Shown in pieces: positions 2,732 to 47,901 of a DNA stretch of 64,000 nucleotides. This stretch comes from Candidatus Uhrbacteria bacterium. Its GTDB lineage: Bacteria; Patescibacteriota; Patescibacteriia; 2-12-FULL-60-25. Location: positions 186,001 through 250,000 of the forward strand of contig JAIOPK010000006.1 of the NCBI GenBank assembly GCA_021413945.1. Reading direction: 5' to 3'. The notes under the pieces were generated by a model. The model made no database searches. It saw only the letters and a list, made by a program, of their open reading frames with translations, and was not told the origin of the DNA. Numbering within the stretch: the first letter of the stretch is position 1; each line of letters starts with the position of its first letter. The position numbers and the translations under genes were made by a program.

Positions 2732-3088
2732 ATGGATTATCGGAAAATGCGCGGGCAGAGCGGGGAGTCGATTGCGTTGGCGTATTTGGAAATACGCGGA
2801 TTTCGTCTCGTGGAACGTAATTGGAATTGTCGATTAGGGGAGATCGATCTTATCGTCGAGCGCGGAGGGGAGACGCGTTTTATTGAGGTAAAACTTCGGC
2901 GAACGACGGAGTTTGGGTATCCGGAAACTTCGATTACCCCCACAAAATTGAGGCATTTAAGCCGTGCTATCGAGTGCTGGATGAATACGCAGAGAAAACC
3001 GCCCTTGCGTTATCAAGCCGATGCTATCGCTATTTTTGCGCCTTTGGGACAGGAGCCGGCTATCGAGTGGATTGAGGCAATCTTGTAG
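2732..3088 (+). CDS. yraN: YraN/UPF0102 family endonuclease-like protein
   Basis: GESIALAYLEIRGFRLVERNWNCRLGEIDLIVERGGETRFIEVKLRR matches the YraN pattern (GE.DL...FVEVK.R). Start moved to 2732 because the ORF-track N-terminus translates the palindromic element. Confidence 0.85.
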   Translation: MDYRKMRGQSGESIALAYLEIRGFRLVERNWNCRLGEIDLIVERGGETRFIEVKLRRTTEFGYPETSITPTKLRHLSRAIECWMNTQRKPPLRYQADAIAIFAPLGQEPAIEWIEAIL

Positions 3089-3125
3089 AAATAGCTAGTT
3101 TTAGCCCAATATTAGTTTCCTGACA

Positions 3126-3154
3126 TTGACAAAATGACGATTTTTTGCTATAAA
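3126..3154 (+). promoter_or_regulatory. Sigma70-type promoter TTGACA-N17-TATAAA with extended TG
   Basis: TTGACA 3126-3131, 17-nt spacer, TATAAA 3149-3154, TG at 3146-3147. The ATG at 3187 lies 32 nt downstream. Confidence 0.8.
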
Positions 3155-3186: not shown

Positions 3187-4362
3187 ATGACGATTGTCAT
3201 GATCGGCCAAAAAGGCTTGCCGGCCCATTCCGGCGGCATCGAACGCCATGTAGAAATACTGGCGCGCGGTTTGGTGTCTCGCGGGAATCGCGTGATCGTT
3301 TTTGGACGTTCTTGGTATGTCGGCGGAGGCCGTCCGCCGGCCGGAGTTGAACAAGTGATTACACCGTCTATTCGCACCAAGCATTTGGATGCGATTACGC
3401 ATGGTGTTTCTTCTTTGTTCCGTGCTCGCGATTTTTCACCTAATATTATCCACTTGCATGGCACGGGTATTGCCTTGCTTACGCCGCTTGCGCGCCTCAT
3501 GCACCCAAAAGCCAAGGTTATCGTCACCTTTCACTGTCAGGACTACGTTCTGTCCAAGTGGGGATGGTTTGCCAAGATTGCCTTTCGTGCCGGAGAATGG
3601 TTGGCCTGTCAGGCCAGCCACCGTACGATTGCCGTTTCGGAAACGTTGGCGCGTTATTGTCTCGATACCTATGGTACGCAGACGACGTATGTTTCCCATC
3701 CGATTCCGGAGCCAAACCCGATTACGGATGCGGGAGCCGTACAGGCTCACGGTCTGACGCCGGAGCGCTACTTCTTGTTTGTTGGACGTTTGATTCCGGA
3801 CAAGAAAGCGCATGTTCTTGTTGCGGCTTATGAAAAGGCGCGCCTCATCCGCCCCGACTTGTTTGCGGACCGACCGCTTGTGCTCGTTGGCGGAGCTTCT
3901 TGGACCGACCGATATGCTTCCTGGTTGTGTAATCAGGCCGCACGCGTTCCGGGTGTGATCATGCTCGGTGAAAAGAGCGGACGTGAACTTGAAGCGTTGC
4001 AGGCTCACGCGATGACCCATGTGTTTCCGACCGCGAGTGAAGGCTTGTCTTTTGCTCTCATCGAAGCTTGTCAGTATCGCCGTCCGGTTATCGCTACGGA
4101 AATTCCCGGTAACCTTGAAGGTACGGGCGGACATATGCGTCGTGTTGCTCCGAACGATGTCGATGCATTGACGGATGCTTTGATCGATCTCGCATCACAA
4201 TCTTCCACACAGCGATTGGAGATGGCTTCTCGTGCGCATGCCTATGTGACGCGCGTTCATCATGTTGAAGACCGTTTGGACGATCTGGTCCGCGTCTATC
4301 AAACGACGTTGAACGGCCGCGCCGAGCTCGTCACATTCCCGGCATTGGCGACAACTCATTAA
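3187..4362 (+). CDS. Glycosyltransferase family 4 (DUF1972-like N-terminus)
   Basis: MTIVMIGQKGLPAHSGGIERHVEILARGL; C-terminal FPTASEGLSFALIEACQYRRPVIATEIPGNLE. Confidence 0.85.
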   Translation: MTIVMIGQKGLPAHSGGIERHVEILARGLVSRGNRVIVFGRSWYVGGGRPPAGVEQVITPSIRTKHLDAITHGVSSLFRARDFSPNIIHLHGTGIALLTPLARLMHPKAKVIVTFHCQDYVLSKWGWFAKIAFRAGEWLACQASHRTIAVSETLARYCLDTYGTQTTYVSHPIPEPNPITDAGAVQAHGLTPERYFLFVGRLIPDKKAHVLVAAYEKARLIRPDLFADRPLVLVGGASWTDRYASWLCNQAARVPGVIMLGEKSGRELEALQAHAMTHVFPTASEGLSFALIEACQYRRPVIATEIPGNLEGTGGHMRRVAPNDVDALTDALIDLASQSSTQRLEMASRAHAYVTRVHHVEDRLDDLVRVYQTTLNGRAELVTFPALATTH

Positions 4363-4397
4363 ACAAAAATCTCGCCCCTAGGGCGAGATTTTTGTTT
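4361..4397. terminator. Bidirectional intrinsic terminator, 17-bp perfect stem with 3-nt loop
   Basis: AAACAAAAATCTCGCCC-CTA-GGGCGAGATTTTTGTTT between convergent genes. The minus-strand stop codon sits in the loop. Confidence 0.95.
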
Positions 4398-4677
4398 CCG
4401 GAGTTCGAGGCGAATATTTGAGATTGCGCATGCGCCATTGATCGATCCATTGACCGATGCCTTGCTCATCGCGCTTGCGTCGGAGCTTGGCTTGTCCTTG
4501 AGACCAAGCTACGAGCGATGGGAATGAAATCTTGTAGCGGTTACGGACGACGATGTAGCGGAGTTCTTGGGCGGTGATTGCGCGTCGGATTGTTCTAGGG
4601 TTTACGCCAAATAACCGCGCCGCCTCACTGACCGTGACTCGGACCAGCTGCTCCTTGTTTTGGGTTAGTTCAGACAT
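4378..4677 (-). CDS. Helix-turn-helix (MerR/excisionase-like) DNA-binding protein
   Basis: VTVSEAARLFGVNPRTIRRAITAQELRYIVVRNRYKISFPSLVAW. Confidence 0.75.
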   Translation of the reverse strand: MSELTQNKEQLVRVTVSEAARLFGVNPRTIRRAITAQELRYIVVRNRYKISFPSLVAWSQGQAKLRRKRDEQGIGQWIDQWRMRNLKYSPRTPETKISP

Positions 4678-44653: not shown

Positions 44654-46417
44654 ATGATCCGGATCGCCATTATGGGCACAGGGATGGTGGGAGGTGCCCT
44701 CGACCGCTTTTTCCGACTGTACGGTACGGTTCCGGGCCTTTACGACCCTCCAAAAGGATTGACGGATACCTCGGTTTTGGCCACGGCAGACGTCATTTTT
44801 GTTGCCGTACCGACGCCGTACTACCTCGATGGCAGCGGTTTTGACGAGTCGTATTTGCGGGCGGCGATCGAGGTGATTCCGGTTGCCGGGAAGACGATCG
44901 TTCTGAAGTCGACGATTTTGCCCGGGACGACGGAACGGATGCAGGAGGATTATCCTCAGCATCGGTTTTTATTTAATCCGGAATTTTTGACCGAGACGAC
45001 GGCGGATCGTGACATGCAGTTTCCGAATCGCCAAATTGTCGGCTATACGGCGGAGAGTCGGAAAGATGCGGAGATGGTGATGGGGATTCTTCCCCGTGCT
45101 CCCTTTGAGAATATCGTTCCGTCACGTACGGCGGAGATGGTGAAATATTTTGGGAACGCGTTCTATGCGCTCAAAGTCGCGTATGCGAACCAGATGTACG
45201 ATCTTTGTGAAAAAATCGGCGTTGATTATGACTTGGTGAAGGAATGCGCCAAGGCCGAGCCTTGGATGGGAACGCATCACTGGGAAATTTTTCACAAGGG
45301 CTATCGCGGTTACGGGGGTAAGTGTCTGCCAAAGGACACGAGAGCGATTGTTCAGCTGGGCGATCGGGTCGGCGTCGATTTGTCGACGCTTAGGCATGCG
45401 GAAGAATATAATAATGCGCTTGGACTTGCGCAGGGGATTGATATCCATTGGGAGGAAGGATCGCCTAAGAAGGAATCGACGTCGCCGACGTTTCTGAAGA
45501 AGAAGCGCTATCTCGTTACCGGAGGCGCGGGATTTATCGGCTCGAACTTGGTCGACGCGTTAATAGCGGCGGGGCATGACGTGCGCGTGATTGATAACTT
45601 ATCGACAGGGAAGCGCGAGCGCGTGCATCCGACGGCGGAATTTATTCTTGCCGATTTTACCGATCTCGAGCAAATTCGCCCGTACTTTGAAGGAATGGAC
45701 GGCGTGTTCCATGTCGGCGCGTTGCCGCGTATCCCGTTTTCCATCGAGCATCCGATTCCGGCTGCGGAAGCGAATGTGATGGGGACGTTGAATGTCTTTG
45801 TTGCGGCGCGAGACGCCAAGGTGAAGCGTGTTGTGTACAGCGCCTCTTCGTCGGCATATGGCTCGCAGGAACAATTACCGCTGCGTCCCGACATGCCGGC
45901 GAATCCGTTGAACCCGTATGCGCTCCACAAATACATGGGGGAGAAGATCGCGGAGCAGTTTCATCGTTTTTACGATATGGAGACCGTGTCGCTACGCTAT
46001 TTCAATGTGTATGGTCCGCGTATGGCCGATGAGGGTGCGTACGTGACGGTTATTTCGCATTACATGCGCCAGAAAAAAGCTGGACAGCCGATTGTTATTC
46101 ATGGCGATGGCGAGCAGTCGCGTGATTTCACGCATGTGTCCGATGTCGTCCGGGCAAATATGTTGGCGATGGAGTCGAGCTCGGCCGGCAAAGGAGAGGT
46201 GGTGAATGTGGGAGCCGGCGAACGGCACTCGATCAACAAGATCGCGGATATCTTTGGAGGGCCGCGTACGTACGTCGAAGGACGCAAAGGCGAGGCACGG
46301 CACACGCAAGCGGATATTACAAAAACGCGAGAGTTGATTGGCTGGGAGCCGCGCATCAAATTCGACGACGGTTTGCGACAGCTGCTGCGAGATGAGGGGA
46401 TCGAGCCGGCGATGTAG
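44654..46417 (+). CDS. Fusion: truncated UDP-sugar 6-dehydrogenase-like + extended SDR epimerase
   Basis: N-terminal IAIMGTGMVGGALDRFF...LFNPEFLTETTADRD...GYGGKCLPKDTRAIVQ; linker SPKKESTSPTFLKKK; C-terminal RYLVTGGAGFIGSNLVDALIAAGHDVRVIDNLSTGK...YALHKYMGEKIAEQF. Confidence 0.9.
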   Translation: MIRIAIMGTGMVGGALDRFFRLYGTVPGLYDPPKGLTDTSVLATADVIFVAVPTPYYLDGSGFDESYLRAAIEVIPVAGKTIVLKSTILPGTTERMQEDYPQHRFLFNPEFLTETTADRDMQFPNRQIVGYTAESRKDAEMVMGILPRAPFENIVPSRTAEMVKYFGNAFYALKVAYANQMYDLCEKIGVDYDLVKECAKAEPWMGTHHWEIFHKGYRGYGGKCLPKDTRAIVQLGDRVGVDLSTLRHAEEYNNALGLAQGIDIHWEEGSPKKESTSPTFLKKKRYLVTGGAGFIGSNLVDALIAAGHDVRVIDNLSTGKRERVHPTAEFILADFTDLEQIRPYFEGMDGVFHVGALPRIPFSIEHPIPAAEANVMGTLNVFVAARDAKVKRVVYSASSSAYGSQEQLPLRPDMPANPLNPYALHKYMGEKIAEQFHRFYDMETVSLRYFNVYGPRMADEGAYVTVISHYMRQKKAGQPIVIHGDGEQSRDFTHVSDVVRANMLAMESSSAGKGEVVNVGAGERHSINKIADIFGGPRTYVEGRKGEARHTQADITKTRELIGWEPRIKFDDGLRQLLRDEGIEPAM

Positions 46418-46419
46418 TC

Positions 46420-46522
46420 GGATCCCGTATTGCAAAAACACTCCTGCGGAACTCGTCGTCGATATCTTGTTTTTCAAGGTCGACTCAGACAGTCCTCGGA
46501 GTGTTTTTGCAATACGGGATCC
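46420..46522. repeat. Palindromic structured element, copy 2 (25-bp perfect inverted arms, conserved core)
   Basis: Arm 46420-46444 GGATCCCGTATTGCAAAAACACTCC is the exact reverse complement of 46498-46522. Segment 46441-46501 differs from 2611-2671 only at 3 loop bases. Confidence 0.95.
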
Positions 46523-46527
46523 TCCGT

Positions 46528-47901
46528 TTATGTTCCCTGGCGGCGAAGCACGATACCGACCGTACGGAGAAGAATTAGCGCATCGATGAAGAAGGAGCGG
46601 TGCTTAATATAGTACAAATCGTATTGGAGTTTTTTCAGGTTGTCCTCGAGGCTTGCCGTCGGTGTCAGGAACATCACTTGAGCCCAACCGGTTAATCCCG
46701 GACGCGTGAGGTGCCGTAATGCATAATAAGGCATGCGCTCGATGAGCGGGGCGACGAATTCCGGGCGCTCGGGGCGCGGGCCGATGAGGGAGAGATCGCC
46801 GACCAATACGTTCCAGATTTGGGGGAGCTCGTCGATGCGGAGGCGGCGCATTAATCGGCCAAAGGCAAAGAGGCGCGGATCGGTTTTGGCATTTGTGGTA
46901 AATTGCGCGCCATTTTTTTCCGCATCGAGGTGCATGGTGCGGAATTTGAAAATCTTGAATGTTTTTCCGTTTTTACCGACGCGGAGCTGGGAATAGATGA
47001 CGGGCCCGGGCGAAGATAATTTTGTGGCGATTGCGACAAACGGGAAGAGGAGAATCGTGATGATGCCAAACGGGATGGCGAGGATCACGTCGGAAATACG
47101 TTTCGCCGATTCGTACCAAGCTTTGTTGCCCTCGTTCAGGTGGTGCAGGAACCAGCTCTCCGTGACGTACGAGAGGGGGATTCTTCCGGTGGCGGCTTCC
47201 TCGATTTCCGCACGATCGAGGATTTGGACGGAGTTGAAGAGCGAGTTGTAGAGATGGCGCGAGAGCTCCGGCTGGGATTCCGGACGGACGCCGAGGACGA
47301 CAGAAGTAATACGTTCGCGAATCACTACGTTTTGATAGTCAGAAAGCGGGATCCAGGGGATTTCATTGTGCGGATAGGTTTCGCCGCTCGTGGAGATGAC
47401 GGCGACCAGCTTCATGTTCAGGGCGCTTTCACGCAGGAGAGCGTCGACCTTGCGCATTTCTTCCGCGGGTCCGACAAACAGGATGCGGCCGCTGGAAAAA
47501 TAGGATATGAGCAATCGAGCGGCGAGGAGGCGCCATGCGTAGACGAGGAGCAGGGACAAGCTGAAAAAGAGGAAGAGAATTGTGCGCGGCGTAAGACCAA
47601 AAAATGGGAGCAGGTAGAAAAAACCGGCGGCAATCGCCAAGTTAGCGATCATACCTTCCAAAAATGTTCGGAACAATCGAACCGGCTCACGGACGAGCAT
47701 CAAGTTGTAAAGTCCGACGATGTAGAAACAGACCACCCACAACATAATGACAAACGTGAACGGAGTGACATTCACCGCCCAGACATTCAGGTTGATTTCC
47801 GCGTTTCTGATCGCGAGCGCCAGAAAGAGGGCTAACTCAAACATGGCGAGGTCGCCGATGACCAAGAGGAGGCTTTTTAGGCGTTGTCCATTGCGTAACA
47901 T
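46528..47901 (-). CDS. Undecaprenyl-phosphate sugar phosphotransferase (WcaJ/WbaP-like)
   Basis: KRISDVILAIPFGIITILLFPFVAIATKLSSPGPVIYSQLRVGKNGKTFKIFKFRTMHLDAE...RRLRIDELPQIWNVLVGDLSLIGPRPERPEF. Confidence 0.9.
   Translation of the reverse strand: MLRNGQRLKSLLLVIGDLAMFELALFLALAIRNAEINLNVWAVNVTPFTFVIMLWVVCFYIVGLYNLMLVREPVRLFRTFLEGMIANLAIAAGFFYLLPFFGLTPRTILFLFFSLSLLLVYAWRLLAARLLISYFSSGRILFVGPAEEMRKVDALLRESALNMKLVAVISTSGETYPHNEIPWIPLSDYQNVVIRERITSVVLGVRPESQPELSRHLYNSLFNSVQILDRAEIEEAATGRIPLSYVTESWFLHHLNEGNKAWYESAKRISDVILAIPFGIITILLFPFVAIATKLSSPGPVIYSQLRVGKNGKTFKIFKFRTMHLDAEKNGAQFTTNAKTDPRLFAFGRLMRRLRIDELPQIWNVLVGDLSLIGPRPERPEFVAPLIERMPYYALRHLTRPGLTGWAQVMFLTPTASLEDNLKKLQYDLYYIKHRSFFIDALILLRTVGIVLRRQGT

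Follow-up and report, generated by a model that had tools for sequence, protein, structure and literature searches.

A dispersed DNA hairpin with an invariant internal-loop core, found between two convergent genes of a Patescibacteria genome

What is the long, perfect palindrome that fills the gap between two convergent genes of this small genome, and by what route did it come to lie there? The window analysed, a stretch of 64,000 nucleotides, is part of contig C2 of a 1.05-Mb genome (G000), whose close relatives have genomes of about 1 Mb. By this genome size and by the titles of the genomes in which the same element occurs (Patescibacteria, Falkowbacteria, Uhrbacteria and similar), G000 is assigned to Patescibacteria. 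An earlier note on this DNA had described the palindrome as the second of two copies and as filling the gap between a UDP-glucose dehydrogenase/epimerase fusion and an opposing sugar transferase, a placement that proved correct. The fusion gene (44654-46417, + strand) carries the Pfam domains UDPG_MGDP_dh and Epimerase, and the gene opposing it codes for a bacterial sugar transferase (PF02397, - strand, stop at 46528).

The fusion joins the N-terminal and central domains of UDP-glucose dehydrogenase to an epimerase, the C-terminal UDPG_MGDP_dh domain not being among the reported domains. The two parts are also fused in the congener G002; most members of the family are encoded by two adjacent genes instead of one.

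The element is an inverted repeat of 25 nt (46420-46444 and 46498-46522) with 100% complementarity and a 53-nt head between the arms. Folded as RNA, the segment 46420-46522 reaches -63.6 kcal/mol (z = -10.2), and none of 200 shuffles was as good. Its parts, and copy 1 of the window, are as follows.

46420-46444, + strand: left hairpin arm, GGATCCCGTATTGCAAAAACACTCC, whose 25 nt pair with the right arm at 100% complementarity; the pairs covary across the ten genomic copies
46434-46438, + strand: A5 tract, read from the sequence as the putative U-tract of a terminator for - strand transcripts; a conserved column block in the ten-copy alignment
46445-46455, + strand: 5' half of the invariant core, TGC GGA A CTC G, unvarying in 10 of 10 genomic copies, its pattern present in many phyla
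46455-46484, + strand: variable inner hairpin GTCG...CGAC with loop tip TTTTT, supported by pair counts over 171 distinct inner segments
46485-46497, + strand: 3' half of the invariant core, TCAGACAGTCC TC, from the ten-copy alignment, its pattern present in many phyla
46498-46522, + strand: right arm of the hairpin, GGAGTGTTTTTGCAATACGGGATCC, from the inverted-repeat search
46504-46508, + strand: T5 tract after the GC-rich neck, resembling an intrinsic terminator on the + strand by its sequence, in a layout that matches ordinary hairpins of the genome
46418-46527, no strand: stretch inserted relative to G002, whose genes share overlapping stops (TTAA) here
2587-2695, + strand: copy 1 of the element (locus L003), with arms 2587-2614 and 2668-2695, 28 nt, 100% complementary

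The same core is indeed present in both copies, as the earlier note had claimed: a 29-nt probe, cut from the head on its 5' side and searched over the whole window, matches exactly at 2611 and 46441 only (expected matches 0.00). The change from ACTA to TTTT that it had reported at the loop tip is also real. The arm sequences of the two copies differ, yet each arm pair is perfect.

Examination of the whole genome brings the family to ten copies, eight of them beyond copies 1 and 2, with arms of 25-32 bp. What stays constant is a split core, CTGCGGAACTCG ... CTCARACAGTCCTCG (also written TGCGGAACTCG ... TCARACAGTCCTC), which frames a variable inner hairpin, and nearly all of the 36 positions that never vary in the ten-copy alignment lie within it. 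The outer arms behave differently: their sequences differ between copies, and despite this 97.6% of their cells are paired. Of the 34 pairs in the whole structure, 22 show two-sided changes; counted by cells, 84 changes are two-sided and a single one is one-sided, and shuffled and slid controls fall far below the two-sided change observed. Five arm positions separate even the two copies most alike (L001 and L002), and each of these changes is matched on the other arm.

Comparison with G002 dates the element at this junction. In that congener, whose fusion protein is 84% identical, the fusion gene and the sugar transferase gene abut at overlapping stops with no hairpin between them, and G000 has about 110 extra bases; the segment 46420-46522 is therefore a recent insertion and not a conserved feature of the locus. 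The earlier note had named an ordinary short terminator without the core, in related genomes, as telling against its view, and this is borne out in part, the G002 junction being without a hairpin. A second site, at C2:305.6k, is also empty in G002, and at C2:343k the congener has a 10-bp ordinary terminator in place of the element. The core is absent throughout both congeners of the set. The element was either gained in the G000 lineage or lost from both congeners, and gain is the simpler course.

Two ideas on the origin of the arms can be set beside these sites. That the core was dropped into the loops of pre-existing terminators is unlikely as a general rule, because the G002 junction has no hairpin and the inner arms AATACAAAAA are common to several copies. 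That arms derive from host sequence was approached by counting overlaps between arms and coding sequences, and the count was not decisive; at C2:305.6k the left arm extends into the last codons of the upstream gene, and those codons are matched in G002.

The core itself reaches far beyond this lineage. A scan that returned at least 120 stretches, with phyla taken from record titles, places the exact core pattern in at least eleven bacterial phyla; among the matches listed these include Pseudomonadota, Nitrospirota, Actinomycetota (Coriobacteriia), Bacillota (Lachnospiraceae), Bacteroidota (Barnesiella), Spirochaetota, Cyanobacteriota (Gastranaerophilales), Myxococcota, Elusimicrobiota, Omnitrophota and Patescibacteria. 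Twenty genomes in which copies were counted have 1 to 26 each, and a reversed-pattern control gave zero in all of them; G000 and its relative G015 have 10 each, G047 and G056 have 22 each. Within Patescibacteria the distribution is patchy, the core being present in 6 of 38 close relatives and in 7 of 380 genomes across the phylum. At the sensitivity of blastn, no match was found in PLSDB plasmids, INPHARED phages or 5,426 E. coli genomes; viral contigs gave one core match. A search of the literature for the core strings, with partial coverage, returned eight chance matches in unrelated papers for one set of strings and none for a second, and the element may have a published name elsewhere.

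The outer architecture is not the same in all lineages, since in the copies of G054 (loci L384-L389) conservation extends over more of the outer part, CTCATATTGGGTT ... AACCCGAAATGAG, which contains internal loops. In ten loci of Proteobacteria (L040, L048, L054, L068, L103, L106, L109, L111, L119 and L123), two cores face each other about 160-240 bp apart, each pair inside an imperfect palindrome of about 400 bp, and many of these palindromes are bounded by arms of the type CTTNGC...CCAAAAGAAAGTAACCAAAGAA. This facing-core structure is a composite element of its own. One contig with a Spirochaete copy (L047) also holds a TwoAYGGAY RNA (RF01731) at 2997-3132.

We read the element as a member of a dispersed, non-autonomous, REP-like family of DNA hairpins, gained recently in the G000 lineage, the neck of which would act as a portable bidirectional intrinsic terminator, and we give this reading a probability of about 0.62. 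In each copy an asymmetric internal loop forms the constant core, the inner hairpin varies, and the arms are long, nearly perfect in pairing and peculiar to that copy. The element came to lie between the two facing stop codons after the lineage had split from its congener, and the A/T tract at the neck of the hairpin may have turned the insert into a portable terminator working in both directions in this lineage. Spread would have taken place as DNA, probably single-stranded and tied to replication, with the core strand as putative lagging-strand template. A protein would recognise the core, and the arms would owe their perfect pairing to self-templated copying, not to compensatory mutations acquired one step at a time.

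The earlier note had likened the element to a bidirectional terminator, and in G000 the layout agrees with this comparison. A tracts of 5-7 nt stand before the GC neck of the head and T tracts of 5-7 nt after it in nine of the ten copies; dozens of ordinary hairpins of the genome share this arrangement of A-tract, GC stem and T-tract; and most copies lie at gene ends, often between convergent genes, with gene positions taken from rough ORF-based calls. Because the nine copies and the ordinary hairpins share one layout, we accept bidirectional intrinsic termination as the likely local role in G000, a role deduced from that layout. The core is left unexplained by it: in G015, G047 and G056 the same core stands between tracts that are reversed (T on the left, A on the right), which makes no terminator, so termination cannot be the reason for the retention of the core. 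The suspicion voiced earlier, that termination alone is not the whole explanation, is thereby borne out.

A stricter form of the idea, in which the palindrome simply serves both convergent genes as a bidirectional terminator, its core being an incidental loop, would account for the tracts and for the placement of copies at gene ends. Like Rho-independent bidirectional terminators, the element has an A-tract, a GC stem and a T-tract and lies between convergent stop codons; unlike them it has a large invariant head, and relatives have the core without the terminator layout. The ordinary hairpins listed, in a search limited to loops of 3-10 nt, have no invariant 53-nt head. With the core kept where the tracts are reversed and conserved across at least eleven phyla, and with no hairpin at the G002 junction, we judge this stricter form improbable. 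An ordinary terminator-like hairpin, AAACAAAAATCTCGCCC-cta-GGGCGAGATTTTTGTTT, lies at 4353-4405 of the window, and the neck of the element resembles this local style.

The strong fold, the covariation and the internal-loop motif, which could form tandem G.A pairs on the bottom strand, would suit a structured RNA, for example a protein-bound element of a 3'-UTR. G-U pairs build up in stems that are under selection as RNA. On the core strand, however, the inner stems of 171 distinct hairpins contain 845 Watson-Crick pairs, 8 G.T and 14 A.C among 893 pairs, which is opposite to the 23 G.T and 2 A.C found in tRNA acceptor stems of the same loci, each taken at its best offset, a choice that favours paired cells (Fisher p = 1e-4). 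In the outer arms A.C is also commoner than G.T, in a count inflated by conserved mismatches common to related copies, and for that reason the inner stems are preferred as evidence. Judged by these pair counts, the scarcity of G-U pairs argues against the core strand being constrained as RNA. In G000, Barnesiella and Nitrospira the element has no fixed orientation relative to its flanking genes, and none of 4227 Rfam families matched at the gathering score, relaxed thresholds yielding chance microRNA models only. We therefore regard a structured RNA as quite unlikely and retain the DNA hairpin family as the preferred reading.

The manner in which such a DNA may spread is suggested by its strand. 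Among 66 copies from five Patescibacteria, 65 have the core on the strand that is G-rich over the surrounding 16 kb, with p = 2e-18 if copies are independent, a value that overstates independence because the copies are related. GC skew serves here as a proxy for replication direction: if the fork runs the same way as the G-rich strand, it is this strand that acts as lagging-strand template. Genes are biased in the same way as the core; even next to an upstream gene of opposite direction, the core keeps to the skew. In G015 all ten copies share a single strand of a single contig, and nine lie within, or at the border of, the half that has a strong skew of the matching sign. On this contig (C3), one half has a skew near zero and the other about -0.15 (1-640000 versus 700000-1241385). 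The bias does not hold in Barnesiella (11/16) or Nitrospira (6/16).

The feet of the palindrome are also asymmetric in some genomes. In G047 and G056, RCAK stands just left of it in 27 of 39 copies but on the right side in only 3 of 39, and GGGG is found at the left foot in 9 of 20 copies and at the right foot in 2 of 20 (G000 and G015). At C2:305.6k, the G-rich motif GAGGGGA is already in the empty site of G002, as expected of a target site. These tags were spotted by inspection and have no consistent presence in further genomes, and we treat them as a lead only.

The strand bias of 65 in 66, and the retention of the core while the arms diverge, might alternatively mark a site of replication or chromosome function, that is, a single-strand hairpin on the lagging-strand template kept by selection for that function. 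Only about 2% of Patescibacteria carry the core, however, two congeners are without it, and neither Barnesiella nor Nitrospira has the bias; such a site has, in our view, little chance of being the explanation.

Integron attC sites are variable, imperfect hairpins that are recognised by their structure and in a strand-specific manner. The present element likewise has a variable hairpin; unlike attC it has no cassette array and no foot boxes (GTTRRRY / RYYYAAC), its arm ends being variable across the ten copies. REPs tagged GTAG or CGTC have been described from over 80 species in 8 phyla, where they lie downstream of genes or in the gap of a convergent pair; RAYT mobilises the GTAG REPs, and the CGTC REPs are without a transposase (PMC3733652). 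The present element is extragenic, enriched at convergent and co-directional gene ends and rare between divergent genes (by rough ORF-based calls). As with GTAG REPs and REPINs, it is a short palindrome in tens of copies, patchily distributed, with inverted pairs in some lineages (PMC3733652, PMC6006769). It differs from them in its much longer perfect arms, in having an invariant core within the hairpin where they have a tag, in an exact core common to several phyla and in a host genome without RAYT; neither GTAG or GTGG (GT[AG]G) at the 5' foot nor CGTC at the foot was found in the ten G000 copies. CGTC REPs are also palindromes dispersed over several phyla with no dedicated transposase, but they have a stem of 8-9 bp, a loop of 4-5 nt and a CGTC foot (PMC3733652), against arms of 25-32 bp and an internal-loop core here.

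IS200/IS605 elements transpose as single strands in a process coupled to the lagging strand, and their ends are hairpins with a preference for the lagging-strand template (PMC6006769). The strand bias and the asymmetric left-foot tag of the present element recall them; unlike them, it has no Y1 transposase in G000, and no version with coding capacity was seen.

Membership in the known GTAG- or CGTC-tagged REPs, or among attC sites, would explain the gene-end position, the convergent bias, the inverted pairs in Betaproteobacteria (PMC3733652) and, through the CGTC REPs, the missing transposase, but is highly improbable given a foot without GTAG, GTGG, CGTC or an attC-type conserved sequence, a different stem, loop and core, and the absence of RAYT. 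Since the tag and RAYT tests failed, the element is not filed as a REP: it is REP-like by position and patchiness, yet not counted as a member.

The searches for an enzyme that moves the DNA hairpin family gave negative results. Y1_Tnp (PF01797) is absent from G000, G015, G041 and G042, and RVT_1 from G000 and G015, so that the mobilising enzyme may come from outside or have been lost. The core was not found within 47 Y1 or RT loci of other genomes, and no mobile unit with a transposase between two copies came to light. The two half-matches seen in L176 resemble coding sequence. One-kilobase inverted pairs were considered as transposon ends and set aside, the genes enclosed at the two loci inspected (L118 and L112) being unrelated.

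A wider version of the preferred reading can be proposed tentatively, and as a whole it is rather unlikely to hold. It would make the element part of a cross-phylum family of DNA hairpins, defined by the internal-loop core and not by a foot tag, that spreads as single-stranded DNA on the lagging-strand template by means of an enzyme that is neither Y1 nor a reverse transcriptase; its arms, rewritten by fold-back copying, would stay perfect and could take up host sequence, and in this lineage it would have become a portable two-way terminator. A palindromic repeat whose core recurs in at least eleven phyla, and which was found neither in Rfam nor in the literature searched, would be one of the most widespread non-coding mobile DNAs of bacteria, and it points to a protein that recognises the core. 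The paired change of the arms, almost without wobble intermediates, makes the upkeep of perfect bacterial palindromes directly testable, and in Patescibacteria the element is a natural probe of replication-strand bias.
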